Source: Bdellovibrionia bacterium
GTDB lineage: Bacteria > Bdellovibrionota > Bdellovibrionia > Bdellovibrionales > UBA1609
Assembly (NCBI GenBank): GCA_030432925.1
Contig: JAUILT010000027.1
Coordinates: forward strand, 1-34,783
DNA: 34,783 nucleotides
Direction: 5' to 3'
Positions 2,998 to 24,431 of this stretch are shown here, one piece after another (the stretch's first letter is position 1; each line of letters opens with the position of its first letter). The position numbers and the translations under genes were made by a program. The notes under the pieces are model-generated. The model was not told the origin of the DNA and did no database searches. It saw nothing but the letters and a program-made list of their open reading frames with translations.

Positions 2998-3039
2998 ATG
3001 AACAGGTTAAAAGGTGACTCAAGTTCCAAACTATACTGA
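2998..3039 (+). CDS. Possible 13-codon leader ORF upstream of dnaB
   Basis: An ATG at 2998 is preceded by AGGGGAGG, one of the best ribosome-site matches in the window, although the spacing is short (3 bases). It reads MNRLKGDSSSKLY and stops at TGA 3037-3039, inside a degenerate copy of the dispersed repeat. The peptide matches nothing I recognise. It could be a translated leader of dnaB or chance. Low confidence. Confidence 0.2.
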   Translation: MNRLKGDSSSKLY

Positions 3040-3050
3040 TCTAGTTTAAG
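3032..3050 (+). repeat. Degenerate copy of dispersed GATCCGG-TTTGAA repeat
   Basis: TATACTGATCTAGTTTAAG resembles the left arm and spacer of the better copies (TATACCGATCCGG then TTTGAA), with several mismatches. The right arm is not recognisable. It lies between the Fis-like gene and dnaB. It may be a decayed member or chance similarity. Confidence 0.3.
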
Positions 3051-3055
3051 CATCA

Positions 3056-4616: not shown

Positions 4617-4637
4617 TATAATTAATCCAGTTTGATT
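4617..4637 (+). repeat. Degenerate copy of dispersed repeat after dnaB
   Basis: TATAATTAATCCAGTTTGATT keeps the ATCCAGTTTGA core seen in the copy at 16620 (ATCCAGTTTGAATTTTCCG). No matching second arm is visible. It lies 27 bases after the dnaB stop. It is a weak member. Confidence 0.3.
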
Positions 4638-8671: not shown

Positions 8672-8769
8672 ATGTCATGCTTCCTTTCGGTTATAACCCC
8701 TTGAAACAAGGAGTAAGGATTGATGAATTTTAAAGCACATTGTCTACCACGAGCCTGACACTGGGACAA

Positions 8770-8814
8770 GGTCTATACCGATCCGGCTTGAATTTTCCGG
8801 ATCAGTTATAGACC
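8770..8814. repeat. Dispersed palindromic repeat, full copy A
   Basis: The left arm GGTCTATACCGATCCGG (8770-8786) and right arm CCGGATCAGTTATAGACC (8797-8814) are inverted repeats with one inserted and one changed base. The spacer between them is CTTGAATTTT. The copy lies between the divergent starts of rpsF and the FHA gene, close upstream of the FHA promoter. It has no T-tract and no terminating role is expected there. Confidence 0.85.
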
Positions 8815-8848
8815 TTCAAAATTCCTGTGAAAACTATAGTTTTGAGGA

Positions 8849-8854
8849 TATAAT
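8849..8854 (+). promoter_or_regulatory. Consensus -10 box of FHA gene, possibly leaderless
   Basis: A perfect TATAAT ends 7 bases before ATG 8862. With usual spacing, transcription would start at or within a base or two of the start codon, predicting a leaderless mRNA. A partial -35 (GTGAAA, 8827-8832) lies 16 bases upstream. No good ribosome site sits at a normal distance. Confidence 0.5.
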
Positions 8855-8861
8855 AGAGATT

Positions 8862-9926
8862 ATGGCTACTTACATCATTGTTACCGATGGCCCAATGAAG
8901 GGCGAACGGTTTGAAATCAAAGGTGGAGAGAGAGTCGGGCGCGATCAGGGGGAGATTGTGCTCAATGATCCCAAAGTATCTCACCTACATGCTTTAATTA
9001 AAAAGTCCCTACTCGGACAGCTGACGCTGGCTGATCAAAAATCAAAGAATGGGATTATTTTTGAAGGAAAACAGGTAGATAGAGTCAAGCTCAATGATGG
9101 TGTGGAGTTTCGGATTGGTGCCAACTCCTTTAAAGTTGAGACTGCTACCAAAGACGACAAAACTCACACAAAAGTAATTCTTTCTGGAGATCTTGATGAA
9201 ACAGCTCTTGAGGCGCCTTTTTTATTGGAGCAAAGCACTGATGAGTTGTCAGCAAGTCCTGAACTCAGCGAAAATGAAGATACATTTCTCTACAGCCCTC
9301 ACCTTATAGACTCAAAAGAAGAATCTGAAATCATTGAAACGGCCAGTATCATTGACTCAGAAAAAACTGAAAATGATGAAGGTAATACTGAATCAAAAAA
9401 AGAGGAGTTTTTTGATCTTGAGAAAGACAATATCTCTTCTCTTTCTCTTAAAGAGCTGACAACCAAGGGAAAAACTGAATCAAAACTTTCCTTTAGAACT
9501 CTGGATCAGCAATCTGATGAAGAAAGTCCCGGCCTCTTTGAAGAAGAAAAAAAAACATGGAGCCGTGTTTTGGAGAGGCATTCTCGAAAAAGTTTAAAAG
9601 TTGCTATGGATCACCCTCAGAATATTGAAGCCCTAAAGCCCCGAGTAAAATTGACATTCTTTAGAGGAACTCAGGCTGAAACTGAATGGGAATTAGGTTA
9701 TGGCCCTCGAACGGCGGGAAGCGCATCTACGGACCTTCCTATTTGGGAGCCAGCAGCCCCTCAAGGAGACTGTTTTGTTATATCCCCTTCGGAGTCGGGT
9801 CCACGATTTTCTACAAAGTTTCCAAATGTTGTAAAAATCAATGGGCAGTCTGTTGAAGAGGTAACACTAACATCTGGTGATGTCATTTCAATTGCTGAAA
9901 CAGAAATAGAGGTAGAATTGTTTTAA
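8862..9926 (+). CDS. FHA-domain protein with acidic linker
   Basis: A 354-residue protein. Residues ~1-95 form an FHA domain, a phosphothreonine-binding module. It shows VGRDQGEIVLNDPKVSHLHA (Arg27, Ser40, His43) and DQKSKNGIIFEG (Asn63), the conserved contacts of the fold. Residues ~100-245 are acidic and probably disordered, rich in Glu, Asp and Ser, with several Ser/Thr that could be phosphorylated. The last ~100 residues (KLTFFRGTQAETEWELGYGP onward, ending VTLTSGDVISIAETEIEVEL) look like a second, degenerate beta-rich FHA-like domain. No signal peptide or membrane segment is seen. The stop overlaps the ATG of the hydrolase by one base, so the pair is co-translated. It likely acts in Ser/Thr kinase signalling, but no kinase is in the window. 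Confidence 0.88.
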   Translation: MATYIIVTDGPMKGERFEIKGGERVGRDQGEIVLNDPKVSHLHALIKKSLLGQLTLADQKSKNGIIFEGKQVDRVKLNDGVEFRIGANSFKVETATKDDKTHTKVILSGDLDETALEAPFLLEQSTDELSASPELSENEDTFLYSPHLIDSKEESEIIETASIIDSEKTENDEGNTESKKEEFFDLEKDNISSLSLKELTTKGKTESKLSFRTLDQQSDEESPGLFEEEKKTWSRVLERHSRKSLKVAMDHPQNIEALKPRVKLTFFRGTQAETEWELGYGPRTAGSASTDLPIWEPAAPQGDCFVISPSESGPRFSTKFPNVVKINGQSVEEVTLTSGDVISIAETEIEVELF

Positions 9927-10813
9927 TGGAAAAGATTCTCAAACAGACCGGAACTTTTAAAAGCTTTGATGGAACTCGTATTTACTATGAAGTTCGTGGT
10001 GAAGGAAAACCCATTGTTCTTTGTTATGGAATTGGTTGTCTTATTAATCACTGGACCCATCAAATCAATCACTTCTCAAAAACACATAAAGTAATAGCAT
10101 TTGACTACCGGGCTCATCACAAATCATCGATCCCTCAAGACCAGAACCAGCTGACACTTGATGCCCATGCTCAAGATATCAAAGCCCTTTTAAATCACCT
10201 AGATATTGAGAAGGCCTGTATGATGGGTCACAGTTGGGGCGTACAGGTTCTTGTGAGAACTTATGACATGTTTCCCGAAAGTTTTGCTAATACCGTTTTC
10301 ATTAATGGCTTTGTGAAAAATCCCATTGTCGGCATGTTTGGCAATGATATAGCCGGTTCGTTTTTTCAAGTTTTCAAATCCGGCTATAATCAATTGCCAG
10401 AAACGCTCAAGTATTTATGGAAGAAAGGGGTTAATAATCCTCTCGCCATTCAACTCAGTGCCCTTGCCGGTGGATTTAATCTCAATTTAACTTCGCTTAA
10501 AGATGTAGAGATTTATGCTCGAGGCCTTACGACCATGGATCTCAATGCTTTTATTAGCTGTTTCGAGATGATGATGAATTACAATGGGGAACCAGTATTA
10601 GATAGAATTCAAGTACCCGCATTAATCATTGGTGGAAAAAAAGACGCTGTGACTCCTCAAGAGCACCAAGAGGAGATTCATGTGCGCATCAAAGGCAGTC
10701 AGTTTTTAATGATTCCCTATGGATCTCATTGCACTCAGTTGGATATGCCTGAGTTTGTGAACACTAAAATTGATAATTTTCTCATTAAAAATAATTATAC
10801 CGATCCGGTTTGA
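9926..10813 (+). CDS. Alpha/beta hydrolase fold protein
   Basis: A 295-residue single-domain alpha/beta hydrolase. The nucleophile elbow is GHSWGV with Ser103; the acid is probably Asp240 in GGKKDAVTP; the base is His268 in PYGSHCTQ. The oxyanion-region segment CYGIGCLINHW replaces the more common HG. The substrate cannot be told; esterases, haloperoxidase-like enzymes and lipases share this pattern. No signal peptide is seen, so it is probably cytoplasmic. It overlaps the FHA gene by one base and is likely translationally coupled to it. Its last codons (Tyr-Thr-Asp-Pro-Val-stop) lie inside a copy of the dispersed repeat, so the natural C-terminus was probably reset by insertion of the repeat. 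Confidence 0.9.
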   Translation: MEKILKQTGTFKSFDGTRIYYEVRGEGKPIVLCYGIGCLINHWTHQINHFSKTHKVIAFDYRAHHKSSIPQDQNQLTLDAHAQDIKALLNHLDIEKACMMGHSWGVQVLVRTYDMFPESFANTVFINGFVKNPIVGMFGNDIAGSFFQVFKSGYNQLPETLKYLWKKGVNNPLAIQLSALAGGFNLNLTSLKDVEIYARGLTTMDLNAFISCFEMMMNYNGEPVLDRIQVPALIIGGKKDAVTPQEHQEEIHVRIKGSQFLMIPYGSHCTQLDMPEFVNTKIDNFLIKNNYTDPV

Positions 10814-10818
10814 AGTTT
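10796..10818 (+). repeat. Dispersed repeat, half copy B
   Basis: TATACCGATCCGG, then TTTGAAGTTT, matches the left arm and spacer of the full copies. The second arm is lost; unrelated GC-rich hairpin sequence follows. The first 18 bases (10796-10813) are coding and provide the hydrolase stop codon TGA from the conserved TTTGAA. Confidence 0.75.
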
Positions 10819-10851
10819 GGCTTAGGCCCACTCACTGGCAGGCCACAGCCA
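10818..10851. terminator. Hairpin between convergent hydrolase and protease genes
   Basis: TGGCTTAGGCC (10818-10828) pairs with GGCCACAGCCA (10841-10851) with two mismatches, around a 12-base loop. AT-rich sequence (TAATTTATT) follows on the plus strand. The position between two convergent stops supports a bidirectional terminator, although the T-tract is imperfect. Confidence 0.4.
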
Positions 10852-10872
10852 TAATTTATTGAAATATAATAC

Positions 10873-12516
10873 TTACTGATAAGCAACCGCTTGAACGTCA
10901 AATCCGTATTTATTCACACTGCTATCTGAGGTAAAACGAAGAGTGATTGTATCTCCTTCAAATACTGGGGAGAAAGAGTCATCAAAGCTTCCACTCATTT
11001 CACCAACCACTTCCATAGCTGCATCCAAAAACTGAACTTTGTCGTAACTTCTTTCTGTCTCAAAGCGACTGAAGTATATAGAAATCCGCGAAGCTCCAGG
11101 CACACTCACTGTCCACTCCTGAGAAAATGCATCCGTATAAGGATGTGGAGTAGAGATATTGTGCGTATTTTTATCCCAATTGAAGGGGTCATTCGGGTCT
11201 GCTGGAGCCGGTGTATCTGTTAAAGCATGATAAGCGCTTACGATACCGCCAGAAGCCACTTTGGAACGAATCGCACTCACTGGAGATGTTCTTCCAACAA
11301 TTCTTCGTTTCAAATCAGCCATAGAAATTCCAGGTACATGAGATAAAACCAGTGCAGCAACACCTGAAACGTGAGGTGTTGCCATGGAAGTTCCGGACCA
11401 GGACTTGTAGCCATCAGGGGTTGTGGAAAGAATTCCTACACCTGGAGCAGCCACATGAACTGTATTTCGTCCATAAGACGAAAAGCTTGCTAATCGTCCA
11501 TCACTATCAATGGCGGCCACGGAAATAATATTATCTACATCGTATGAAGCAGGGTAAGAGGGGTCTCGATCATTATTGGATTTAGAATTTCCAGCAGCAG
11601 CTGTAAATAGTATTCCAGCGTCTCTAGCTCTTTCAATAGAGGCCTTTAACTCTTCAGAAAAGCCGCCGCCTCCCCAAGAGTTGCTCATTACGTTCACTCC
11701 CATAAGAGTTGCATAATCAATAGATTTTATAGCATTAGCCAGAGTTCCGCTTCCGCTTCCTGTCAAGAATTTGATGCCCATAATCCTAACATCCCAAGCA
11801 ACACCGACAATACCTTTGCCGTCATTTCCCTTAGCACCAATGGTTCCGGAGCAGTGAGACCCATGTCCATGATCATCCATGGGGTCACCATCACCGTTGG
11901 CAAAATCATAACCATAGATATCATCAACAAAACCGTTTCCATCGTCATCCACACCGGCTTGACCGTTGAGTTCTGCATCGTTCGTCCACATATTGGGAGC
12001 AAGGTCTTCAATCGTGTGATCCACACCTGTATCAATCACAGCGATCACTACGTCACGACTTCCTGTTTCAAGTTCCCAACCTCTTTGAACATCTACATCT
12101 ATGCCTTCTCTACTTGTTACTTGGCTCGTTAAGTTAGACCCTGTGTTGATTAAGCCCCAAAGTTGGTCCAGCATAGGATCGTTGGGCAGAGCTTGAGTTC
12201 CACCATTGATGTCATATATATAGTTAGGCTCGGCGTTAGCTACCATTGGGTGACTCTCTAATGACTGAATAACAAACGACTCTCTCTCCAGTGCATTTTT
12301 TCTAACCAACACAGCCTTTGAAGCAGGGCTAATCTTTTCTACAACCTCTACGCCCAATGATTGACTGAGCTGTTGAACGCTCATTACTGAATGTGTATCT
12401 TTTAATTTTACGACGTATTCACCAGGTACAGCTTGAACACCCTTCTCTGCAATGGCAGACACTGAGAACACCAATGCTGTCGCAGCAATCACTTGTGTCA
12501 CTCTTCCTTGAAACAT
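10873..12516 (-). CDS. Secreted subtilisin-like serine protease (S8) with I9 propeptide
   Basis: A 547-residue preproprotease. Residues 1-~23 are a Sec signal peptide. Residues ~30-100 are an inhibitor I9-type propeptide (GEYVVKLKDTHSV, ending ANAEPNYIYD). The catalytic domain shows Asp162 (AVIDTGVDHT), His218 (HGHGSHCSGTIG), oxyanion Asn310 (TAAAGN) and Ser377 (SGTSMATPHVSG), so the triad is complete. The insertion VDDDGNGFVDD (about 189-199) looks like a calcium loop. After ~residue 430 comes a beta-rich C-terminal domain of about 105 residues, CUB-like in pattern (SYDKVQFLDA, GDTITLRFTSDSSVNKYGFD). TAGGAGT gives a good ribosome site before ATG 12516. The enzyme is exported and calcium dependent by family; in a predator it could degrade prey protein (inference). 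Confidence 0.95.
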   Translation of the reverse strand: MFQGRVTQVIAATALVFSVSAIAEKGVQAVPGEYVVKLKDTHSVMSVQQLSQSLGVEVVEKISPASKAVLVRKNALERESFVIQSLESHPMVANAEPNYIYDINGGTQALPNDPMLDQLWGLINTGSNLTSQVTSREGIDVDVQRGWELETGSRDVVIAVIDTGVDHTIEDLAPNMWTNDAELNGQAGVDDDGNGFVDDIYGYDFANGDGDPMDDHGHGSHCSGTIGAKGNDGKGIVGVAWDVRIMGIKFLTGSGSGTLANAIKSIDYATLMGVNVMSNSWGGGGFSEELKASIERARDAGILFTAAAGNSKSNNDRDPSYPASYDVDNIISVAAIDSDGRLASFSSYGRNTVHVAAPGVGILSTTPDGYKSWSGTSMATPHVSGVAALVLSHVPGISMADLKRRIVGRTSPVSAIRSKVASGGIVSAYHALTDTPAPADPNDPFNWDKNTHNISTPHPYTDAFSQEWTVSVPGASRISIYFSRFETERSYDKVQFLDAAMEVVGEMSGSFDDSFSPVFEGDTITLRFTSDSSVNKYGFDVQAVAYQ

Positions 12517-12615
12517 AGTTGACTCCTATAGCCCATCCTTGAGCGTTAGTTTTTGTTTAGTTCCAAAATGGTACCAAGAAATGTCAGGAATTCGAAAAGA
12601 ATTGAACTGGAGAGA

Positions 12616-12646
12616 GGTCTAGAAATTCAAACGGGATCGGTATACG
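12616..12646 (-). repeat. Dispersed repeat, shortened copy C on minus strand
   Basis: Read on the minus strand it is CGTATACCGATCCCG, then TTTGAATTT, then CTAGACC. It keeps the left arm, spacer and the outer end of the right arm (TAGACC as in copy A), with the middle of the right arm missing. This looks like an internal deletion of a full copy. It lies between the protease start and a small upstream gene. Confidence 0.75.
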
Positions 12647-12660
12647 TTTTTTAAACGCTT

Positions 12661-12861
12661 CTAACGGGCTTTTTTGTATTCTGTGGGGCCCAAGTCAAAG
12701 CTCAGCTGAGTATCAGTGAGAGGTGTTTTAACAGGCACAACTTCACCCTTGTCACCCTCTTTGAGGGACTGACACAAGCTTTTAAGGAAGGCCTCTTTTG
12801 TGGACTCTGGGGCTTGCTTATTAAAAGCCAGATCTTTGAGAATATCCTCTGCTTTGCGCAT
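12661..12861 (-). CDS. Small hypothetical protein, 66 aa
   Basis: A short, charged, mainly helical protein. It begins MRKAEDILKDLAFNKQAPES and ends FDLGPTEYKKAR. The opening resembles the N-terminus of DUF721-type proteins, but it is too short for the whole family domain, so I do not assign it. ATG 12861 is preferred because AGAGG lies about 7 bases upstream. The same frame is open to an earlier ATG at 12933, which would add 24 residues of poor composition. It sits upstream of the protease on the same strand, separated by about 145 bases containing repeat copy C. No function is offered. Confidence 0.55.
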   Translation of the reverse strand: MRKAEDILKDLAFNKQAPESTKEAFLKSLCQSLKEGDKGEVVPVKTPLTDTQLSFDLGPTEYKKAR

Positions 12862-13032
12862 TGCGAAACCTCTGAGTTTGTTGACGCGAAACCTAAAATA
12901 AAAGGCCTCGTGCTTGTTCGGAAGTTTGTGCAAATCAATGAAGGATTCCTAAGGAGCATTCCCATGGCTGTCATAATAAAGACACATAATTAGGTGCATC
13001 ATGGTTCAAATTCGCCCATTTTTTTATAGGAA

Positions 13033-13041
13033 TGTGGATAA
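13033..13041 (-). promoter_or_regulatory. Single perfect DnaA box-like 9-mer
   Basis: TGTGGATAA is the reverse complement of the DnaA box TTATCCACA. It lies in the non-coding stretch between the sdhB stop and the small gene at 12661-12861. A related ATAACTC occurs at 13038-13044 and again at 13060-13066, 22 bases apart. One 9-mer may be chance. Confidence 0.3.
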
Positions 13042-13118
13042 CTCTGTGAATTTGTGTCTATAACTCACAAAATATTGAAGAGTTTCTTAGGTAAACACTA
13101 GATATAGAAACAGATAAT

Positions 13119-13892
13119 TTAAGATCTGTCCTTCAAACTTGCTTTTAAAAAGTCCTTATTCATTTGAGCAATATTCTCAAGACTGATCTCTTTAGGGCAA
13201 GCTGCCGAGCAGGCACCCGTATTTGTGCAAGCACCAAACCCCTCTTGATCCATCTGCTGAACCATGTTGCGAGCCCTTTCATCTCTTTCTGCCTGCCCCT
13301 GAGGTACCAAACCCAAGTGAGTGATCTTGGCTGATACAAATAGGTTAGCAGAAGCATTTTTACAAACGGCCACACATGCCCCACACCCTATACAGGCTGC
13401 TGAAGCAAAAGCTTCATCCGCGTCTACCTTTGGAACTGGCAAAGCGTTGGCATCCTGGGCATTTCCGGTATTTACAGAGATAAATCCACCGGCCTGTATA
13501 ATTCTGTCAAAGGCTGACCGGTCAACAACCAAGTCTCTAACCACAGGAAAAGCTCTGGCCCGAAAAGGCTCTATAACCACGGTCTGTCCATCCTGAAATC
13601 GTCTCATGTGGAGCTGACAAGTTGTGGTTGCTGTATCCGGGCCATGGGGATTGCCGTTAATGACCATAGAACAAGCACCACAAATTCCCTCACGACAGTC
13701 GTGATCAAATTCTACAGGACTTTTGCCAGCCTTTACCAGGTCTTCATTCACCACATCCATCATTTCAAGAAAGGACATATCTGTGGAAACGCTTTTGGCT
13801 TCATGCTCGATAAAATGGCCCTTGTCATCTGGACCATTTTGTTTCCAAATTTTTAGCTTTAGGTTGATAGTTTTTTCGGATGTGCCACCCAT
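13119..13892 (-). CDS. sdhB: Succinate dehydrogenase/fumarate reductase iron-sulfur subunit
   Basis: A 257-residue electron-transfer subunit of complex II, peripheral on the inner membrane. The [2Fe-2S] cluster ligands are CREGICGAC (Cys66, Cys71, Cys74) and Cys92. The [4Fe-4S] motif is [11 protein letters not shown] (Cys167, 170, 173, 177). The [3Fe-4S] ligands are Cys222, Cys228 and Cys232 (CTNTGAC, AACPKEI). All three cluster sets are intact. It passes electrons from the flavoprotein to the quinone site. It is the last gene of the C-A-B operon, 11 bases after sdhA. Confidence 0.97.
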
Positions 13893-13903
13893 GCCAATCT
13901 CCG

Positions 13904-15838
13904 TTATTTATAACTTCTTTGAGTTGGTTGAACGTATTCAAAATCAAGTTCTTCTTTGTGTCTTTGCCATTCTATTTTATTGCCACCATTGTCAGCAGTG
14001 CTTTCCCAGGCAGCAACATGGGTAAAGTTCTCATCATCCCTTTTAGCTTCGTTTTCAGGAGTTTGGTGTTCTTCGCGAAAGTGGCCCCCACAGGACTCCT
14101 CTCTAGTAAGAGCATCCATGGCCATTAGCTCTCCGAGTTCCAAAAAGTCAGCCACCCGACCTGCTTTTTCAACCTCTGCATTTTTGTAATTGGCCTCTCC
14201 AACAATCTTTCCATCCACCCAAAATTTTTCACGAAGTGTCTGAATTTTTTCAATCGCCTCTTTAAGGCCAGAGGCTGTTCTAGACATACCCACGTGATTC
14301 CACATGATGTTTCCAAGTTCTCGATGAATCTCATCCACTGTGGTGGAACCATTCATTGCGACAATTTTATCTAGGCGATGTCTTACAGTACTTTCTGCCT
14401 CTTTGAAGGCCTCATGATCAACTGTCACGTCCTCTATGGTATTGGAAGCAATATAGTTGCCAATTGTGTAAGGAATCACAAAGTAACCATCCGCTAATCC
14501 TTGCATCAATGCCGAAGCACCCAATCGGTTAGCTCCATGGTCCGAAAAGTTAGCCTCTCCCAAGACATGCAGCCCCGGCAAGTTGCTTTGCAAGTTATAA
14601 TCCACCCACAACCCACCCATGGTGTAGTGAACTGCTGGATAGATTCTCATAGGAACTTTATATGGATTTTCATCTGTGATTTTTTCGTACATTTGAAACA
14701 AGTTTCCGTACTTTTCAGAAATGGCTTTTTCGCCATCCCTTTTAATAGCACTAAGAAAATCTAAATAAACTGCCTCACCTGTGGGACCAACGCCACGTCC
14801 TTCGTCTACTCGGAATTTGGCCTGCCTTGAAGCCACATCCCTTGGAACCAGGTTTCCAAAACTGGGATAAATTCTTTCTAGATAGTAATCTCGTTCCTCT
14901 TCCGGAATATCATTAGGACGTCGATGGTCACCTTTTTCTTTTGGAACCCAAACCCGTCCGTCATTTCTAAGGGACTCTGACATCAGCGTTAATTTAGACT
15001 GGTAATCACCACTTCTTGGAATACACGTGGGATGAATCTGTGTGAAACAAGGGTTCGCAAAATAAGCCCCTTTCTTGTGAGCCCTCCAACTGGCTGTCAC
15101 ATTACAGTTCATGGCATTTGTAGAAAGAAAATAAACGTTTCCATACCCCCCCGTCGCCAGGCAAACCGCATCGGCCAGGTGACGTTCAATTTTACCAGTT
15201 GTCACATCTCTGGTAATAATCCCACGAGCCTTACCATTAACAACCACCAAATCGAGCATCTCCTTGCGTGTATGCAAATCCACTTTTCCAAGCCCCACCT
15301 GACGACTCAAGGCTGAGTAGGCACCAATCAAAAGCTGCTGACCTGTTTGTCCTCTGGCATAAAAAGTTCTTGAAACCTGAGCCCCACCAAAAGATCGGTT
15401 GGCCAACAGCCCACCATAGTCCCTGGCAAATGGAACCCCCTGAGCCACACATTGATCAATGATATTGTTGGAAATCTGAGCCAGTCGATAAACGTTACTT
15501 TCTCTTGCGCGAAAATCACCACCTTTAACCGTGTCATAAAACAATCTATATATGGAATCACCATCATTGGGATAATTTTTAGCCGCATTGATACCGCCTT
15601 GGGCAGCAATGGAGTGAGAACGTCGAGGTGAGTCCAAAATAGTAAAGGCTTTCACCTTATATCCCAACTCTGCCATACTGGCTGAAGCCGAAGCACCGGC
15701 AAGGCCCGTTCCCACCACAATTACGGAGTGCTTTCTTTTATTTGCAGGGTTCACAAGCTTCATGGAAAACTTGTGATTGTCCCAGCGGGATTGAATATCT
15801 CCAGCAGGGCAGTTTGAATTAAGAGTTCCGTTCGACAT
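13904..15838 (-). CDS. sdhA: Succinate dehydrogenase/fumarate reductase flavoprotein subunit
   Basis: A 644-residue catalytic subunit of complex II that oxidises succinate to fumarate in the TCA cycle. It shows the dinucleotide-binding [20 protein letters not shown] and the covalent-FAD histidine region [23 protein letters not shown] lies in the substrate domain, and [16 protein letters not shown] carries the conserved active-site Arg. The length and the ~40-residue N-terminal segment before the FAD motif match B. subtilis/epsilon-type enzymes better than the E. coli one. It sits 3 bases after the sdhC stop and 11 before sdhB. The enzyme could also work as a fumarate reductase; the sequence alone does not decide direction. 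Confidence 0.97.
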
Positions 15839-15841
15839 CTG

Positions 15842-16513
15842 TTACCCCTTATAAATAAAAAACACGTAAAGTGGTTGAGCGATAAATCCACCAGCCACAA
15901 TGAAAGCATAAAGGCAGCTGATTTTTTTAATCATGGGTGTATACTTGGGATGATTGAACCCAAGTGTTTGAAAGGCCGACCCCACACCATGACTCAAATG
16001 AAGTCCAAGTATCAGCAAAGCAATGATATAGCCAACCAGATAGCCAGGTTGGGCAAATACCTCCACTACCAACCTGTGAAGATCTCGCACGGGCTCTCCA
16101 TCATATATGACTTCGTAGTAATTTCCGAACTTGAAAGTAAATAAATGAAGAATCACAAAGACAAAAATAATCAGCCCCTGGGCCCACATGGTTTTGGTCA
16201 CAGCGGAGGTCGCCTTATCTCCAGAGGATGCCATGGCGTACTTTTGTGGACGCGCCTGACGATTAACAAAGGTCAATAGAACAGCCTTAACTACATGAGC
16301 CAAAAACAACGCTATCAACCCCATCTCTGCTAGATAAATCAAGGGGTTAGTGACCAAAGCATGCCCATAGAGGTTATACATTTTAGGGTCTACAAGAATA
16401 AGAAGGTTTCCGGCCATGTGAGAAAGTACAAACAGGGACAGGCCGAGACCCGTGACTCCCACAAGGGACTTGCTTCCAATGGTTGATTTTACCAAACGTA
16501 GTAAACTGCTCAT
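15842..16513 (-). CDS. sdhC: Succinate dehydrogenase cytochrome b558 subunit (diheme type)
   Basis: Membrane anchor of complex II, 223 residues from the chosen start, with five hydrophobic helices. This is the single-polypeptide anchor of B. subtilis/Wolinella type, replacing separate SdhC and SdhD. Candidate heme-ligand histidines are visible in LSHMAGN, LYGHALVTNP, LFLAHVVKA, ILHLFTF and LHLSHGVGSAF. ATG 16513 (MSSLLRLVKSTIGSKSLVG) is chosen because family members start here and AAGGA lies about 10 bases upstream. An in-frame ATG at 16558 would add 15 residues but has no ribosome site. First gene of the sdhCAB operon, divergent from etfB. Confidence 0.92.
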   Translation of the reverse strand: MSSLLRLVKSTIGSKSLVGVTGLGLSLFVLSHMAGNLLILVDPKMYNLYGHALVTNPLIYLAEMGLIALFLAHVVKAVLLTFVNRQARPQKYAMASSGDKATSAVTKTMWAQGLIIFVFVILHLFTFKFGNYYEVIYDGEPVRDLHRLVVEVFAQPGYLVGYIIALLILGLHLSHGVGSAFQTLGFNHPKYTPMIKKISCLYAFIVAGGFIAQPLYVFFIYKG

Positions 16514-16619
16514 AACAACAGTGTCCTTATCTGCTTCAAAAGTTGTGTTGAGGTCCATTAGTTTATACGACCCAGGACTTACGGTCTATACCCAAAGCAA
16601 GTGAGTTTTCTTGAATTTT

Positions 16620-16662
16620 GTACCCATCCAGTTTGAATTTTCCGAATTTTTGGGATTGGATG
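16620..16662 (+). repeat. Dispersed repeat, diverged copy D
   Basis: GTACCCATCCAG, then TTTGAATTTTCCG, preserves the core and spacer of copy A. CATCCA (16625-16630) and TGGATG (16657-16662) are inverted 6-base arms, so some symmetry is kept although the rest of the right half has drifted. It lies in the sdhC/etfB divergent region. Confidence 0.65.
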
Positions 16663-16783
16663 AGAAACGGATCTGAGAATATTTTTAAGCAAACAGTCTG
16701 AGGTGGAGCCAAAATTCAATACAACCAGATTTGCCGGGCCGCGTGAATTTTTGCACTGTCTGTGAACCGCAGCCGTCCTCAAG

Positions 16784-16812
16784 TTGATTTCTTGTAACGT
16801 TTTGACTATATA
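16784..16812 (+). promoter_or_regulatory. Sigma70-type promoter of the etfB operon
   Basis: TTGATT (16784-16789) and TATATA (16807-16812) are separated by 17 bases, close to consensus. The start codon follows 30 bases downstream, with GGAGAG as ribosome site. It probably drives etfBA and possibly the longer downstream chain. Confidence 0.6.
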
Positions 16813-16842
16813 ACGTCTTTCCTTTCAACCGCGGAGAGATAA

Positions 16843-17619
16843 ATGCGAATCTTTGTTTGTGTGAAGCAGGTCCCGGACACTGAAACTAAAATCAAGATTA
16901 ACAGTGATGGCAATGGTATTGACGAATCCAGCATCAAATGGATCGTCAACCCCTACGATGAGTTTGCCATTGAGGAAGCTCTCAAGCTCAAAGAGTCTGC
17001 AGGAGAAATACGGGTAACAGCTATCAGTATTGGCCCCAAAAAAAGAGTGACTGATGCCCTGAGAACAGCCATGGCTATGGGCGCAGATGATGGAATTGTT
17101 ATTGATTCTGAAGACTCACTGGACCCTTATCTGACTGCAAAAGCCCTTTCTGAAGCTTTAAAGAAAGAAGATAGCTGCGATTTTATTTTTACCGGAAAGC
17201 TGGCCATTGATGACAATGCCAGTAGTGTGAGTCAATATCTTGCGGAGTTTATGGGAATCCCGCATGTGACAGTTGTGTCCTCTTTCAAGGGAAGCGGTGG
17301 CTCTTACACTGCAGAGAGAGAAGTGGAAGGGGGGACAAAAGAGGTTTATTCCATTTCAGGTCCAGCGGTGATCGCTGCCAACAAGGGGCTGAATACACCA
17401 AGATATGCCTCTTTACCAGGAATCATGAAGGCCAAGAAAAAGCCATTGAAAGAACTCACTTTAGGAGATCTGGGCCTTTCTGGTGCGGATAGTAAAGTGA
17501 CTTTCTCTAATTTTGAGCTGCCACCAGAAAAACCTCCTGTAAAATTTATTGAAGGCGAACCTGCTGAGCAGGCAAAGGAGCTAGTAAAACTACTCAGAGA
17601 AGAAGCAAAAGTGCTTTAA
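16843..17619 (+). CDS. etfB: Electron transfer flavoprotein beta subunit
   Basis: A 258-residue EtfB. The opening MRIFVCVKQVPDTETKIKIN and the WIVNPYDEFAIEEALKLKE segment are family signatures. GADDGIVI and the DDNASSVSQYLAEFMGIPHV region form the nucleotide-binding side. With EtfA it forms a cytoplasmic heterodimer that carries electrons from acyl-CoA and other dehydrogenases to the quinone pool through ETF-quinone oxidoreductase. The ribosome site GGAGAG precedes ATG 16843. The gene is followed by etfA after 15 bases. The recognition loop PRYASLPGIMKAKKK is present. Confidence 0.97.
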   Translation: MRIFVCVKQVPDTETKIKINSDGNGIDESSIKWIVNPYDEFAIEEALKLKESAGEIRVTAISIGPKKRVTDALRTAMAMGADDGIVIDSEDSLDPYLTAKALSEALKKEDSCDFIFTGKLAIDDNASSVSQYLAEFMGIPHVTVVSSFKGSGGSYTAEREVEGGTKEVYSISGPAVIAANKGLNTPRYASLPGIMKAKKKPLKELTLGDLGLSGADSKVTFSNFELPPEKPPVKFIEGEPAEQAKELVKLLREEAKVL

Positions 17620-17634
17620 GAAAAGGATTATGAC

Positions 17635-18600
17635 ATGGCCAAGACGTTTATATTTTGTGAATTCAATAACGGAAAAATCAAAAAGGGCAGCCTTGAACTT
17701 CTAACAGCTGCAAAAGCTGCTGGTGCCGAAATCACAGCACTTTTGATAGGACCGGGCTCTACTGAGGCAGCCCCTGAGGCTGGCCATTATGGAGCATCCG
17801 CTACTTTTGTCTGCGATAGCGAGTCTTTGAAAAATTATAACCCCATGGCATGGTCAAAAGTCGTTAGCCAAACTATTAAAAACAGTGGATGCACTGTCTT
17901 TTTGGCAACATCCTCAATGACTGCAAAAGACCTGTTTCCTCGAGTTGCTGCCCAATTGGAAACAGGAATTGCCAGTGATTGTACAGACCTTGAGTTCAAC
18001 GGCGATACACCTATTGCAAAAAAGCCCCTTTATGCGGGTAAATGCAAGGCCCAAGTCAACTTTGCCAACTCTCCTATTCAGATGATACTTATGCGCCCCA
18101 ACCAGTTGCCTATTGGAGAGCCCGATACCGGAGGCCATTGTGAAATCAAAACTCTTTCCGCACCAGAAATAGACGATAGACTCAAAATAACTGACGTCAA
18201 AAAAGGCAATACTGATAAAGTGGACTTGACGGAGGCCAATGTTATAGTTTCTGGGGGGCGGGGAATGAAGGACGCCGATAATTTCAAACTTCTTGATGAA
18301 TTGGCTGAAACCCTTGAAGCCACAGTCGGTGCATCGAGAGCTGTCGCCGATGCCGGCTGGGTTCCTCATAGCATGCAAGTCGGTCAAACAGGCAAAACCG
18401 TGGCACCAAGCCTTTATATAGCCTGTGGAATTTCTGGAGCTATTCAACATCTGGCTGGAATGAGTGGTAGTAAAGTGATCGTTGCCATAAATCAGGATAA
18501 GGATGCTCCCATTTTTGCCAAATCTAACTATGGTATTGTAGGCGACCTGTTTGAAGTTGTTCCAAAACTCAACGAGGAACTGAAAAGCGTCCTTAACTAA
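17635..18600 (+). CDS. etfA: Electron transfer flavoprotein alpha subunit
   Basis: A 321-residue EtfA, the FAD-binding partner of EtfB. The C-terminal FAD domain has VSGGRGMKDADNF, GASRAVADAGWVPHSMQVGQ, TGKTVAPSLYIACGISGAIQ and AINQDKDAPIFAKSNYGIVG, the conserved series of the family. The N-terminal domain (residues 1-~190) is more variable, as usual. GTVAPSLYIA-type contacts to FAD appear intact. The stop overlaps the ATG of the acyltransferase gene by one base, indicating translational coupling. Confidence 0.97.
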   Translation: MAKTFIFCEFNNGKIKKGSLELLTAAKAAGAEITALLIGPGSTEAAPEAGHYGASATFVCDSESLKNYNPMAWSKVVSQTIKNSGCTVFLATSSMTAKDLFPRVAAQLETGIASDCTDLEFNGDTPIAKKPLYAGKCKAQVNFANSPIQMILMRPNQLPIGEPDTGGHCEIKTLSAPEIDDRLKITDVKKGNTDKVDLTEANVIVSGGRGMKDADNFKLLDELAETLEATVGASRAVADAGWVPHSMQVGQTGKTVAPSLYIACGISGAIQHLAGMSGSKVIVAINQDKDAPIFAKSNYGIVGDLFEVVPKLNEELKSVLN

Positions 18601-19259
18601 TGTTCAGAAAATACCTGCTACCTGTCCTTGTCTATTGGTTATATCGGCTGTTATTCATGACATGGCGAAAAACTATTGTGGAGGAGGAACCTCTCCGTAG
18701 AGCTATTGAAAACAACCAACCCATCATATTTGCTCATTGGCATGGCCATGAGTTAGCTATTACTTTTTTAGTTTCTAAATACAAATTGGCAACAATGACA
18801 TCTGTCAGTAAAGACGGTCAGTTGATTGATTATGTCATTCGCAGACTTGGGGGAGCCACCTCCAAGGGATCTTCTTCTAAGGGGGCCATTTCAGCACTTA
18901 AAGGCCTAATAAGGCTTATGAAAAAAGGACATCCTGCCAGTATGGCTGTGGATGGTCCAAGAGGTCCTATCTACCAGGTCAAACCTGGGGTTTTTGAGCT
19001 TTCCAGACTGGCCCAGGCTCAAATTTTTCCAGTGGGTGTGGCCGTTGGAAACCCCCTCGTTTTTGAAAAATCATGGAATAAAGCTATTCTGCCCAAGCCT
19101 TTTTCAAAAGTGGCTGTCTGTTATGGGGAACCTATCTCGACTTTAGACAAGTCCAAAAACCCCAAAGACATTAAAATGGCCAATGATTTAAAACAGCGCA
19201 TTTCTGATGCTTGCCAGCAAGCTTCCAAACTCATTGCTACACAAAAACCCGAGTGCTAA
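18600..19259 (+). CDS. DUF374 lysophospholipid acyltransferase family protein
   Basis: A 219-residue protein related to lipid A and lysophospholipid acyltransferases. It has an N-terminal hydrophobic segment (LLPVLVYWLYRLLFM). IIFAHWHGHE takes the place of the HxxxxD catalytic region. MAVDGPRGPIYQVKPGVFELS is typical of DUF374, as is IFPVGVAVGNP. It probably acts at the inner membrane on lipid or lipid A precursors. The acyl donor and acceptor are unknown. It starts on the last base of the etfA stop codon and is followed after 34 bases by a parvulin gene. The context, before envelope chaperones, suits an envelope role. Confidence 0.85.
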   Translation: MFRKYLLPVLVYWLYRLLFMTWRKTIVEEEPLRRAIENNQPIIFAHWHGHELAITFLVSKYKLATMTSVSKDGQLIDYVIRRLGGATSKGSSSKGAISALKGLIRLMKKGHPASMAVDGPRGPIYQVKPGVFELSRLAQAQIFPVGVAVGNPLVFEKSWNKAILPKPFSKVAVCYGEPISTLDKSKNPKDIKMANDLKQRISDACQQASKLIATQKPEC

Positions 19260-19293
19260 CCTTAAAGGCAATGCGCATCAAAGGGTTGTTATT

Positions 19294-20112
19294 ATGAGAA
19301 AAATTTTATTTTACCTGATTTTTTCGAGTATCTTCACCTTCACCGTTCAAGCACAGACTATCGTTGCGACTGTAGGAACCAAAAAAATCACTCTCAAAGA
19401 ATTCAATGAAAAATATGATGAAGTGAAAAAAAACACCATCAATGCTCCTGAACCAAAGCTTTTTTTAGAAGACCTGATTCGTTATGAAATGGGACTTCAA
19501 GAAGCAAAAAAAAGACGACTTGATAAAGACCCCATTGTCAGGGAGCGTTTCAATCAGGAACTTTACAAAGCCCTACTTGAAAAACAAATTGGTGATGAAG
19601 TTTCTAAAATTAAAATATCTGAAAAAGAAATGCAGGCTTACTACAAAAAAAATCCTGAACTGCGCCTCAGCCATATTCTGATTGAATTTAAACCAAATGC
19701 TTCTACAAAAGAGGTGAACGAAGCTAAAAAACGGGCCGAAGAGCTTTACGCCGAAGTTAAAAAAAGTAAGAGGCCTTTTGAAGATTTGGTGAAGTTGTAC
19801 TCCGACGACTCTCTCAGTAAAAACACTGGTGGCGATATTCAATATCAATCTCGAGTTACCATTGTTCCCCCAATTTATGAAGCTGCATTAAAAATGAAAG
19901 TGGGGTCTATCCGCGGAATCATTAGAACTCAATATGGATTTCATATTATTAAATTAACAGGAAAGAGAAGTTACCAACAGGCCAATAAAAGGCAACTCAG
20001 AGCCGCTGTATTTGACTTTAAAAGAAAGCGCATTTTTGATAAGTATTTTTCTGCGCTCTCCAAGAAATATAAGGTTCAGAGAAATCAGCAGGCTTTAAAG
20101 AAAGTGAAGTAA
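19294..20112 (+). CDS. Periplasmic parvulin-type peptidyl-prolyl isomerase
   Basis: A 272-residue SurA/PpiC-type protein. Residues 1-~20 are a Sec signal peptide (RKILFYLIFSSIFTFTVQA). An N-terminal helical chaperone region follows (KKITLKEFNEKYDEVKKNT). The parvulin domain covers about residues 125-225, with LRLSHILIEF, FEDLVKLYSDD, GGDIQY and QYGFHIIKLTGKR. Both conserved histidines are present, so isomerase activity is plausible. ATG 19294 is chosen over an earlier in-frame ATG at 19207 because it gives a proper signal peptide and has AAAGGG upstream. First of three tandem parvulin genes. Confidence 0.9.
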   Translation: MRKILFYLIFSSIFTFTVQAQTIVATVGTKKITLKEFNEKYDEVKKNTINAPEPKLFLEDLIRYEMGLQEAKKRRLDKDPIVRERFNQELYKALLEKQIGDEVSKIKISEKEMQAYYKKNPELRLSHILIEFKPNASTKEVNEAKKRAEELYAEVKKSKRPFEDLVKLYSDDSLSKNTGGDIQYQSRVTIVPPIYEAALKMKVGSIRGIIRTQYGFHIIKLTGKRSYQQANKRQLRAAVFDFKRKRIFDKYFSALSKKYKVQRNQQALKKVK

Positions 20113-20124
20113 AAGGATCCATCT

Positions 20125-21135
20125 GTGTCACTTTTAGAAGTTCGTGTTCACAGCACTTACTCTGTCGTAAGATGTGCAGGGTTTTTTATTTTTCTACTTG
20201 TTTTTACATCTTGCTCACCACAATGTACACCTGGAACACAATCTCTATCTAATAGAGTAGTTATTCAAGTGGATGACTCTGAAATGTCAGCTCAAGAGTT
20301 TGCTTCACGCCTTGCTGAACGATTAAAAAATTATGATGCTCTTGCTGTCAAAGAGGATCGAATTCTCTCCAAAGCCAAACAAGACATTGTTCGAGATTTT
20401 ATTTTAAAGGTGCTTACCGAAAACTGGGCTCAATCAAACCAAGTTATTTTGCGAAAAGAGGATATTGATGCTCAAATCAATGACATCCGTAATCAGTATC
20501 CTGATGATTTGACTTTTCGACAAAAACTCATTGAAGAAAATCTCACTTACGAAGAATGGCTAGAAAAAATGAAGTTCAGTCTTCTGCAAAATCTTGTTAT
20601 GAAAAAACTCATTGAAGATACTAAACCTCCTGAACAGAGTGAGTTAAAGGCTTACTATGAATCTAACAAGGATCTTTTTAAAAAAGCTCGACAAGTAAAA
20701 CTCCGTCAAATTGTTTTAAAAAATGAAAATGATGCAAAATCTATACGATCAGAAATCCACAAAAAGAAAAAACAAATGGAAGATCTAGCTCCTAAGTTTT
20801 CTATTGCCCCTGAAGGGCTTAATAAGGGAGAGTTAGGCTGGGTTGAGGAGGGAACTCTTGAAGTCTTTGACAAAGTCTTTGACCAACCAACAGGTTATTT
20901 AAGCGGTGTGTTAAAAAGCCCCTATGGTTACCATATCATCAAAGTTTTGGATAAAAGAAATGCTATGACAGTAAAGTTTGAAGATGTAAAAGACAAAATA
21001 TACAAAGTTTTCATACAGAACCGTGAGCAAGCAGCTTATTCCAAATGGTTGGAAAACGAAATCAGAAAGGCTAAGGTTATGAAAGACGAAGCCTTTATTG
21101 AAAATATAAAAATTGAAACTCGGGACGAATATTGA
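20125..21135 (+). CDS. Parvulin-like lipoprotein, active-site His apparently lost
   Basis: A 336-residue SurA-like lipoprotein starting at GTG 20125, preceded by AAAGGA. The hydrophobic N-terminus ends LLVFTSC with Cys30 as probable lipidation site (approximate lipobox). A SurA-N-like helical region spans about 45-175 (AQEFASRLAERLKNYD, EEWLEKMKFSLLQNLV). The parvulin fold at ~190-285 keeps GELGWVEEG and SPYGYHIIKVLDKR. Its first strand reads KLRQIVLK, where active parvulins have HIL. This suggests a chaperone without isomerase activity. The stop TGA overlaps the TTG start of the next gene by two bases. Confidence 0.85.
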   Translation: MSLLEVRVHSTYSVVRCAGFFIFLLVFTSCSPQCTPGTQSLSNRVVIQVDDSEMSAQEFASRLAERLKNYDALAVKEDRILSKAKQDIVRDFILKVLTENWAQSNQVILRKEDIDAQINDIRNQYPDDLTFRQKLIEENLTYEEWLEKMKFSLLQNLVMKKLIEDTKPPEQSELKAYYESNKDLFKKARQVKLRQIVLKNENDAKSIRSEIHKKKKQMEDLAPKFSIAPEGLNKGELGWVEEGTLEVFDKVFDQPTGYLSGVLKSPYGYHIIKVLDKRNAMTVKFEDVKDKIYKVFIQNREQAAYSKWLENEIRKAKVMKDEAFIENIKIETRDEY

Positions 21136-22085
21136 AACAGCTTATTTTAATTTTATTCTTAATAACAATACCTACAGTAACTCAAGCAGAAATTGTGGAA
21201 AAAATCGTGGCTATTGTGAATGATTCGATCGTCACTCTTTCTGACATTAATACATTCAAGAAAAAAGTACGGTCTGAGGGTCTCATTGATAGCGCTATTT
21301 TAAAAAACAAAAACCCAAAGGAAATGATCAAGGATCGTAATGCTATTATTGAACATCTTATCGACGAACAGGTCATTGATTCAGAAATTCGACGCCTAGG
21401 TATTGCTGTTACTATTGAAAAAGTAGAAGAAGAGATTCGATCTGTAACTAAAAGAAATGGTCTCAGTAGAGAGCAACTAAAGTCTGCATTGGGAGCTAGA
21501 GGAATAAAATTTTCAGACTACCAAGACTTTATCAAAACATCTTTGGAGCGCCAGTCTTTAATCGATCGCGAAGTTTCATCAAAAATAAAAATCTCTGACG
21601 AAGATATTTCAAACTTCTATTTATCTAAAAATAAAGGCGCAAGTGGGCAAATTTTTGAGTACAAACTCGCTCATATACTCATTCAAGATAATGTCAGTGG
21701 TGGTGTCTCTGCAAAAAAACGAATGCTTAATATTGTGAATAAATTAGAATCCGGAAATGAATCTTTTGAAAAACTCGCCTCTCAATATTCAGAAGATCCC
21801 AACTTTTCACAAGGCGGGCTCTTAGGTAGTTTTAAAGCTGGTGAAATGGTCAAAGAGTTTGAAAAAGGAATTGCCAATTTAGATGCAGGACAAACGTCAG
21901 GGGTGATTAAAACTCAATTTGGTTACCATGTAATTAAGGTTTTAAAGAAAACTCTTATTTCGGATCCTGCCATGGAATCACAAAAACAACAGATTCATGC
22001 CGTTCTCTATTCTCAGGCATTCAACCGTCAATTTCGAAAATGGCTAGATCGAAAGCGAGATGAAGCTTTTGTAAAAATTAATTGA
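21132..22085 (+). CDS. surA: SurA-type periplasmic chaperone/isomerase
   Basis: A 317-residue protein. It starts at TTG 21132; no other start leaves a signal peptide (KQLILILFLITIPTVTQA). The SurA N-domain is clear: EKIVAIVNDSIVTLSDI, then VEEEIRSVTKRNGLSREQL. One parvulin domain follows (YKLAHILIQD, FEKLASQYSEDPNFSQGG, LGSFKAGEMV, QFGYHVIKVLKK), against two in E. coli SurA. It helps outer-membrane proteins reach BamA in known systems. It overlaps both neighbours, so it is co-translated with the lipoprotein gene and pdxA. A shorter single-domain SurA is common outside gammaproteobacteria. Confidence 0.9.
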   Translation: MKQLILILFLITIPTVTQAEIVEKIVAIVNDSIVTLSDINTFKKKVRSEGLIDSAILKNKNPKEMIKDRNAIIEHLIDEQVIDSEIRRLGIAVTIEKVEEEIRSVTKRNGLSREQLKSALGARGIKFSDYQDFIKTSLERQSLIDREVSSKIKISDEDISNFYLSKNKGASGQIFEYKLAHILIQDNVSGGVSAKKRMLNIVNKLESGNESFEKLASQYSEDPNFSQGGLLGSFKAGEMVKEFEKGIANLDAGQTSGVIKTQFGYHVIKVLKKTLISDPAMESQKQQIHAVLYSQAFNRQFRKWLDRKRDEAFVKIN

Positions 22086-22090
22086 AATCC

Positions 22091-23023
22091 ATGAATCCTG
22101 TAAAACAAATTCTGATTACGACGGGTGATATTAATGGTATAGGGCAGGAAATTACTCTTAAAGCCCTTAAAGAGCTTTCTATCAAAAAAAATACTCGGAT
22201 TGTTATATTTAGTTCCAATAAAAATCAATGGCCCAAAAAAGTTGGCTTCTATAAGTTATACCATTTTTCTTCAGATAGAAATCTTCAGATAGAAAGTCTC
22301 AAACCTAATGAAGTCGCTGTTATTTCTATGTCGGGAGATTCTCATAAATGGGTTGAAACTGCAGCTCAAAGAGCTCTAAAGTACTCTCATCATGGAGTGG
22401 CTTTAGTCAATGCACCTATGTCCAAAGATAAAAAAGGGCATGGACATACTGAAATACTAAAATATGTTACAGGAAATCAAAAACTCTATATGGGTTTTCT
22501 CGGAAATTATTTTAATGTCTGCCTGGCAACCACACATATTCCTGTGGACAGTGTGTTTAGCCAACTCAGTGCAAAAGCCATTAGAAATTCTTTTCGAGCA
22601 GCATTAAAACTTCATGAACTGGGGGGAGGATATCAAAAATTAAGAGTTCTTGGGTTGAACCCTCATTCCGGAGAAAATGGAGCCATTTCTCATCAAGATC
22701 AAAAAATTATAAGAAACCTGCCTTCTGAAGCCAAACCATTGTTAGTGCCAGATACAGCTTTTATTAACCATAAAAAATCTGATACTTACCTAGCGTGGTA
22801 TCATGATCAGGGGCTTATTCCTTTTAAAATAGTCCATGGCTTCTCCCACGGAATTCAAGTGACTCTTGGGTTACCCTTTATTAGAACTAGTGTGGATCAT
22901 GGTACAGCAAAAGATATCTTTGGCAAAGGGGTGGCCGACCATAGGTCTTTGTTATTAGCCCTAAAGAAAGGGCATCAACTAATGATCAAATTTGAAAATA
23001 CAATCATTCCATCTCAGGAGTAA
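22091..23023 (+). CDS. pdxA: 4-hydroxythreonine-4-phosphate dehydrogenase
   Basis: PdxA acts in pyridoxal phosphate synthesis (DXP-dependent route). The core motifs are GHTEIL (metal His), LGLNPHSGENG, WYHDQGLIPFK and IRTSVDHGTAKDIFGKG, all characteristic. The N-terminal motif reads TTGDINGIGQEI, where most PdxA have GDPAGIGPE. At about 310 residues it is slightly short for the family. TTG 22082, overlapping the surA stop, would add three residues (MKS); ATG 22091 is used here without strong ribosome-site support. The surA-pdxA pairing is widespread, known from E. coli. Confidence 0.93.
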   Translation: MNPVKQILITTGDINGIGQEITLKALKELSIKKNTRIVIFSSNKNQWPKKVGFYKLYHFSSDRNLQIESLKPNEVAVISMSGDSHKWVETAAQRALKYSHHGVALVNAPMSKDKKGHGHTEILKYVTGNQKLYMGFLGNYFNVCLATTHIPVDSVFSQLSAKAIRNSFRAALKLHELGGGYQKLRVLGLNPHSGENGAISHQDQKIIRNLPSEAKPLLVPDTAFINHKKSDTYLAWYHDQGLIPFKIVHGFSHGIQVTLGLPFIRTSVDHGTAKDIFGKGVADHRSLLLALKKGHQLMIKFENTIIPSQE

Positions 23024-23025
23024 AA

Positions 23026-24393
23026 ATGAGCTACGAACCAGTAATTTTCAGGGAATATGATATTCGCGGTGTCTGGAATAAACAATTTGATGCTGATTTT
23101 GCCAGACTATTGGGGCGAGCCCATGTAACTTTTCTTAAAAAAGAAAGAGGTATAGAAAATCCAAGTTTATCTATTGGCCACGATGCCCGACTATCTAGCC
23201 CAGAAATTGTTCAGGCCCTATCTCAAGGTGTACGAGAGTCTGGTGGAAACGTTAAGCTGTTAGGTCTAGTTACCTCACCTATTAGTTATTTTACTACGTT
23301 CACTTTGAACATAGATGGTGCCTTCATGGTCACTGGTAGCCATAATCCCCCTGAGTTCAATGGTTTTAAAATTTCTGCCGGCAAATCCACTATTTTTGGA
23401 GAAGACATCCAAAAATTAAAAGTTATTATTGAAAATAACGATTTCTTTTTAGGTAGTGGTACAGAAGAAAAAATTGATATCTTTCCCTCTTATATCAAAA
23501 GATATAAAAATGAATTCTCAGAACTCAAAGATATTCCTATAGTTTTAGATTGTGGAAATGGTGCTGCTGGTTGTGTCGTACGGGAGCTTTTTGAGGCCTG
23601 TGGATTAAGTCCTACAATTCTATTTGAACAACCTGATGGAACTTTTCCTAATCACCATCCAGATCCAACCGTTGAAGAAAACCTTGGTGATCTAAAAAAA
23701 GCCGTAAAAAAACACAAGGCACAGGTTGGCATTGGATTTGACGGAGATGCTGATAGAATTGGTATCGTTGATGAAAAAGGAAATATGGTCTATGGCGATG
23801 AATTAATGTGCCTGTGCTCCACCGAAGTTTTAAAAGAAGCTGAAAACAAAACTATTATTGGTGATGTCAAATGCTCTGACAGAATGTTTGATTTTATTGG
23901 TAAGGCCGGCGGCAACCCTATTATGTGGAAGACTGGACATAGTCTCATTAAACAAAAAATTAAAGATGAGAATGCACCTTTTGGTGGTGAAATGAGTGGT
24001 CATATTTTTTTTGCTGACAGAAACTATGGATATGATGATGCACTTTACGCAGCATTAAGAGTGGTTGAGATTCTTGTAAAAACAGGAAAAAAAGTTTCTG
24101 AACTTCTCGAAGCATTACCGCCAGCTTACAATACGCCAGAACTAAGGATTGATACAACTGAAGAAAAGAAACACCAAATTGTTTCTCAACTCAAAGAGAA
24201 ATTCTTAAAGCCCTCTGATAATTATAAGGTGAATCTTATTGATGGAATTCGTGTCAGCTTTCCAAATGGTTGGGCTCTGGCGAGAGCATCTAACACTCAA
24301 CCCGTTCTCGTCTTGAGGTTTGAAGCTGATTCTCAGGACAATCTCAATTCCATCCGAAAGCAATTTGAGGATATTGTAAACCCCATGTTGTAA
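23026..24393 (+). CDS. Phosphomannomutase/phosphoglucomutase
   Basis: A 455-residue alpha-D-phosphohexomutase that interconverts hexose 1- and 6-phosphates for polysaccharide and LPS precursors. The phosphoserine is Ser105 in VTGSHNPPEFNGFK. The metal loop is GFDGDADRIG (Asp239, Asp241, Asp243). The sugar-binding GGEMSGH is at about 320-326, and the phosphate-binding RASNTQPVLVLR lies near the C-terminus. The start FREYDIRGVW is typical of AlgC/ManB-type enzymes, which act on both mannose and glucose phosphates. It begins 2 bases after the pdxA stop and probably ends this operon; repeat copy E follows directly after its stop. Confidence 0.93.
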   Translation: MSYEPVIFREYDIRGVWNKQFDADFARLLGRAHVTFLKKERGIENPSLSIGHDARLSSPEIVQALSQGVRESGGNVKLLGLVTSPISYFTTFTLNIDGAFMVTGSHNPPEFNGFKISAGKSTIFGEDIQKLKVIIENNDFFLGSGTEEKIDIFPSYIKRYKNEFSELKDIPIVLDCGNGAAGCVVRELFEACGLSPTILFEQPDGTFPNHHPDPTVEENLGDLKKAVKKHKAQVGIGFDGDADRIGIVDEKGNMVYGDELMCLCSTEVLKEAENKTIIGDVKCSDRMFDFIGKAGGNPIMWKTGHSLIKQKIKDENAPFGGEMSGHIFFADRNYGYDDALYAALRVVEILVKTGKKVSELLEALPPAYNTPELRIDTTEEKKHQIVSQLKEKFLKPSDNYKVNLIDGIRVSFPNGWALARASNTQPVLVLRFEADSQDNLNSIRKQFEDIVNPML

Positions 24394-24431
24394 GTATACC
24401 AATTCGGTTTGAACTTTCTGGATTGGTATAC
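24394..24431. repeat. Dispersed palindromic repeat, full copy E
   Basis: GTATACCAATTCGG (24394-24407) and CTGGATTGGTATAC (24418-24431) are inverted repeats with 12 of 14 pairs matched, around the conserved spacer TTTGAACTTT. It begins right after the TAA of the phosphohexomutase gene. No T-tract follows. Arm changes relative to copy A occur on both sides (AT for GA), which looks like compensatory change preserving pairing. Confidence 0.85.

Follow-up and report, generated by a model that had tools for sequence, protein, structure and literature searches.

The intergenic palindromic repeat of the window (the whole stretch of 34,783 nucleotides that was analysed) very probably represents a family of IS630/Tc1-mariner-type miniature inverted-repeat transposable elements (MITEs) that are non-autonomous; the host is an uncultured member of the Bdellovibrionota. 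The initial annotation had left the repeat unclassified, naming as candidates an element of REP-like or MITE-like character and a target that a DNA-binding protein would bind at many sites. The MITE description is borne out by the paired terminal inverted repeats (TIRs), a cognate IS630 gene and a TA-duplicated empty site, and the family can be placed in a known kind, the IS630-type MITEs, like RUP and Correia. In the scenario that we propose, the transposase of an IS630 insertion sequence (IS) with the same ends would have recognized the TIR (TATACCGATCCGGTTTGAATTTT) and excised the element, which would have been inserted into T-rich DNA between genes, with a TA dinucleotide as the target, duplicated in the process. 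The parent MITE would have been an element of about 186 bp forming nearly one perfect hairpin, central deletions at the hairpin tip would have generated a series of shorter two-ended forms ending in a 36-bp palindrome, and subsequent erosion would have produced the many single ends.

Members of the family in the window

The window contains five clear copies of the TIR, all of which had been recognized in the initial annotation. With a 23-column profile, they scored 38.3 bits (8774, plus strand), 34.6 bits (10796, plus), 33.4 bits (12622, minus), 29.9 bits (16619, plus) and 30.2 bits (24395, plus); in random windows matched for dinucleotide composition, scores of at least 11 bits arose 0.05 times per window. 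Among the weaker relatives proposed earlier, the sequence at 3032..3054 (plus; 15.0 bits) is a plausible remnant, a degraded single MITE end, but those at 4617 (−10.6 bits) and 28064 (−8.4 bits) were no better than background and were rejected as members.

The two copies previously described as full, with an inverted second arm, correspond to palindromes of 36 or 37 bp. The copy at 8774..8810 (plus) belongs to the minimal 36-bp class and consists of the left TIR and a 13-nt right arm with one extra T, giving 37 nt; it entered the DNA that separates rpsF from an FHA-domain gene and carries a TA target-site duplication (8774-8775 and 8809-8810). The copy at 24395..24430 (plus) is a complete 36-bp palindromic MITE; it follows a phosphoglucomutase/phosphomannomutase gene (23026-24393), 2 nt past the stop codon. 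At 16619..16705 (plus), in the sdhC/etfB intergenic region, lies a truncated long MITE, one end of a 186-bp element, with the TIR followed by GGGATTG..GAGAATATTTTTAA; positions 16621-16705 (about 85 bp) align to positions 100-184 of the 186-bp element with 80% identity. The remaining two copies are single MITE ends: one at 12622..12644 (minus), upstream of a subtilisin-like protease gene (10873-12516, minus), and one at 10796..10818 (plus), formed by the TIR alone, which provides an alpha/beta-hydrolase ORF (9926-10813) with its last codons and stop (..YTDPV*). This arrangement recurs in the genome: where the TIR lies in forward orientation after a gene, it closes the reading frame with its TGA, and at least five genes, the hydrolase included, end in this way, so MITE ends supply the stop codons of several host genes. 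The window contains no transposase, as had been noted before.

Two further ORFs of the window, at 24572-25993 and 25995-28025 (minus), encode a secreted-looking protein of 473 aa without a Pfam match and an adjoining long, charged product of 676 aa.

Genome-wide anatomy and size classes

The genome to which the window belongs (G000; 3.04 Mb in 172 contigs) contains 113 sites with no more than three mismatches to the 22-mer end, whereas the reversed 22-mer used as a control gave no match in the same genome. The repeat observed in the initial annotation is real. Alignment of the sites with their surroundings showed that the arm and the spacer constitute a single conserved unit of about 23 nt, occurring as a TIR. 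The spacer TTTGAATTTT is the inner half of this TIR, which accounts for its conservation despite its not being palindromic.

The two-ended elements, short and non-coding as expected of MITEs and bounded by these TIRs, comprise 13 copies of 47 to 186 bp (sizes of 186, 154, 139, 95, 85, 84, 69, 64, 49 and 47 bp) and a further 22 or so that measure 36 to 38 bp, the 36-bp forms dominating the class. The 186-bp element (G000:C162:14319-14504) forms a single uninterrupted hairpin when folded (−77.5 kcal/mol, z −9.6). The shorter forms match both of its ends and lack the middle, retaining positions 1-83 and 132-186, 1-51 and 145-186, 1-39 and 163-186, or 1-12 and 163-186. Since the smaller forms map to the two ends of the 186-bp element, the 36-bp palindrome corresponds to one complete TIR joined to the 13 outermost nucleotides of its partner.

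We infer that the 36-bp form was derived by deletion. Just inside the TIR some long copies read TTTTCCGGATTTTTGGG, with CCGGATCGGTATA at the opposite end, and if such copies lost the stretch from one CCGGAT word to the other, exactly the 36-bp form would result. It is also conceivable, but rather unlikely, that the 36-bp palindrome is itself competent for transposition and multiplied as such, instead of arising by independent deletions of the 186-bp MITE; it would then rank with the smallest mobile DNA elements on record. Bearing on a private ancestor of the 36-bp copies, a variant right arm, CAGTATA, was found both in some of these copies and at some ends of long elements.

About 70 further genomic sites are single ends, cut off from 11 nt inward, and interior-only pieces of the element are also present in the genome. 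Many of the single ends stop at about 20-25 nt, and a 20-nt 'solo TIR' was considered as a functional unit; this possibility was discarded, as a search with an 11-mer revealed stops anywhere from 11 nt upwards. Single ends of any length from 11 nt, together with interior-only pieces, can be explained by erosion, with no need for a special solo-TIR unit.

Pairing of the arms

It could be argued that the selected unit is a hairpin acting as a structured RNA element or a terminator. The 36-bp copies do fold, with predicted transcript hairpins of about −14 to −15 kcal/mol and z values of about −4 to −5. However, most copies have one arm, the hairpin being restricted to the 36-bp copies; the copies occur in both orientations; and no consistent downstream T run was found in the aligned copies, in agreement with the earlier argument against a terminator based on the absence of a T-tract. 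No match to Rfam 15 exceeded the gathering threshold in the window. In 19 aligned palindromes, 84.2% of the cells were paired, as against 82.3% in shuffles, and double-change cells, at 11 versus 5.5, were barely above the shuffles. The initial annotation had reported that the arms change together in one copy (copy E), consistent with selection for pairing: one of these changes is indeed a G-C to A-U double change, but the other two are G-U wobbles. This excess is too weak, among related sequences, for selection for pairing to be claimed, and an RNA element or terminator appears a most improbable explanation of the family.

The target site

The congeners G001 and G002 have no copy of the repeat and have kept the rpsF region. 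The window reads CTGGGACAAGGTC-TA-TACCGATCC...CAGTTA-TA-GACCTTCAAAATTCC at this site, whereas the empty sites read CTGGGACAAGGTC-TA-AGACTTCCAAAAT in G002 and CTAGGACAAGGCC-TA-AACCCTCAAAATTCC in G001. In short form, the empty sequences GGTC-TA-AGAC (G002) and GGCC-TA-AACC (G001) are to be compared with the filled sequence GGTC-TA-[33 nt]-TA-GACC of the window, the gap having been placed by reading the raw sequences and by a match with the joined flanks. The TA is single in both congeners and doubled in the window genome, demonstrating a TA target-site duplication for this one copy (8774). Such a duplication is expected of IS630/Tc1-mariner transposition. For the other four window copies, the intergenic flanks were too diverged for an empty site to be read, and a search with joined flanks for paralogous empty sites within the genome revealed none evident among the matches listed. 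The flanks outside the TIR favor T (60% at position −1 and 47% at −2). Bacterial MITEs are known for 5'-TA termini and target duplication, and RUP, with IS630-Spn1, for TA targets (PMC2229807).

The empty site bears directly on the possibility that the repeat is a multi-site operator or a nucleoid-protein site, scattered by selection rather than by transposition. The highly conserved, asymmetric 22-nt core could be read in this way, and so could the intergenic placement: the copies avoid genes, 8 of 106 lying inside a predicted gene in DNA of which about 67% is coding, according to crude gene calls. Nevertheless, an operator does not predict an empty site with a TA duplication, interiors that vary between paired ends or congeners devoid of copies, and the position and orientation of the copies relative to genes are inconsistent. 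The DNA-binding-protein branch of the initial annotation is therefore very unlikely as an account of the family; a fixed operator is not needed, and it would leave the size ladder and the empty site unexplained.

If the insert at 8774 is taken out, AAGGTC-TA-GACCTT remains, a palindrome of 14 bp that lies upstream of rpsF and of which the two congeners preserve a part. The MITE landed in the central TA of this palindrome (window 8768-8816) and may thereby have split an operator.

The IS630 transposase

At G000:C154:30380, a TIR with one mismatch in 22 extends over the stop codon of an IS630-family transposase ORF of 295 codons, so that the MITEs share their TIR with an insertion sequence of this family; beyond the TIR, the MITE interiors are unlike the IS. 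The ORF matches NCBIfam NF033545 (208 bits, cut-off 100) and the Pfam domains DDE_3 and HTH_33, and it is the sole IS630 transposase above the cut-off in the genome. The residues of the DDE motif are kept (ADST, LDNAP, NPIER), but about 47 N-terminal residues are missing with respect to an intact relative of 337 aa (G069), and the left TIR is also absent. In the intact G069 IS, the TIR likewise overlaps the stop codon, with the same geometry. The truncation of the C154 copy and the dissimilar MITE interiors count against the proposed scenario, as do the single readable empty site and the genome G031, rich in the TIR but with no transposase found above the cut-off. We infer that the C154 transposase, or an intact sister since lost or unassembled, moved the copies in trans; the ends of an intact IS of this lineage would include TATACCGATCC. 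As most copies are single-ended and diverged and the transposase is truncated, the family is probably dead in G000.

The size of the 36-bp palindromes, their number and their intergenic position would also suit REP/REPIN-like palindromes mobilized by a RAYT (Y1 tyrosine transposase), and the genome has one weak Y1_Tnp-like match. This match, however, does not reach the family cut-off, and its contig (C6) has none of the listed TIR sites; the search for a REP-associated tyrosine transposase proposed in the initial annotation yielded no match to Pfam PF01797 (Y1_Tnp) over the cut-off in G000. REPs are defined with a GTAG/CGTC motif (PMC3733652). In the aligned copies, no unpaired GTAG or CGTC was found at the palindrome end and no conserved tetranucleotide beside the arms. 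The longer elements with the same TIR, the duplicated TA and the presence of an IS630 gene are instead as expected from DDE transposition, and the REP-like part of the earlier description is thus scarcely credible. Y1_Tnp (RAYT-like) transposases over the family cut-off were observed in two relatives, G001 (C312 and C65) and G031 (C72).

Relatives of the IS630 transposase were found in another Bdellovibrionota family, with 45-63% identity over long matches and TIRs such as TATAGTGATCCCGGTTTAAATTTCC. The TIR of these ISs (G069, G130, G065 and G164) is close to that of the window genome, but, unlike the MITEs, they are of autonomous size, at about 1.1 kb, and the four genomes yielded no MITE that carries the window-genome TIR in high copy number. 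A more distant IS630 relative (38% identity), with perfect 67-bp inverted repeats ATATACCCGTTCCACTTTGAAATTAGGATCCGTCATTGCGAGC...., was identified in a metagenome-assembled genome of Gammaproteobacteria (L103:2429-3964).

Distribution in the phylum

A survey of 369 Bdellovibrionota genomes found the TIR in abundance in four species, all of one family: G000 (113 copies), G031 (163), G260 (172) and G015 (15). The other genomes, congeners of G000 and of G031 among them, have 0-2 copies, with none in the congeners of G000 and in most relatives. A high copy number combined with a sporadic occurrence between relatives, as in MITEs, is observed here, and such bursts are typical of mobile elements rather than of a conserved regulator. 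In G031, the same TIRs bound intact MITEs of 215-234 bp with different interiors, and internally deleted forms (92-128 bp) and nested insertions are also present; no IS630 transposase above the cut-off was identified in this genome. The TIR pattern gave no match in viral contigs.

G031 was also seen to hold a second family of intact MITEs (L079, L240, L243 and L257; about 222-227 bp), with the same TIR, a long internal palindrome (GGGGTCAAAAGTTCAAACATGCGTTTTGCC...) and nested copies. In addition, a contig end of G038 (L060; C17:1-122) and a G000 sequence (L024; C106), from different families, share 122 bp including the exact TIR with 98.4% identity, an identity attributable to mis-assembly, mis-binning or recent transfer.

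Relation to known elements

The family resembles RUP, associated with IS630-Spn1, in its approximately 100 intergenic copies per genome, in TIRs like those of a resident IS630 and in its insertion at TA (PMC2229807, PMC3049150). RUP is nevertheless a simple element of 107 bp, whereas the window-genome family forms a ladder from 186 to 36 bp, and the resident IS of the window genome is truncated; RUP also belongs to a different phylum, and the likeness drawn here is one of features. Correia/NEMIS elements of Neisseria have TIRs of about 24 bp, 5'-TA termini, more than 100 copies, size forms differing by an internal segment and hairpin transcripts (PMC2229807, PMC10969869), but their common forms are of about 107 and 155 bp and not, as in the two-ended class described here, of 36 bp. 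REP/BIME and REPIN sequences are likewise short, high-copy intergenic palindromes; the present family differs from them in its lack of a GTAG/CGTC tag and of a RAYT over the cut-off, and in its TA-duplicating insertion.

Our literature search retrieved no paper naming both Bdellovibrionota and miniature inverted-repeat transposable elements, and the result is a defined IS630/MITE pair in this phylum. A 36-bp palindrome with the appearance of a REP can be what is left of a MITE at the end of its shrinkage. Short intergenic palindromes should therefore be checked for longer two-ended relatives and for empty sites before they are labeled as REPs or operators.
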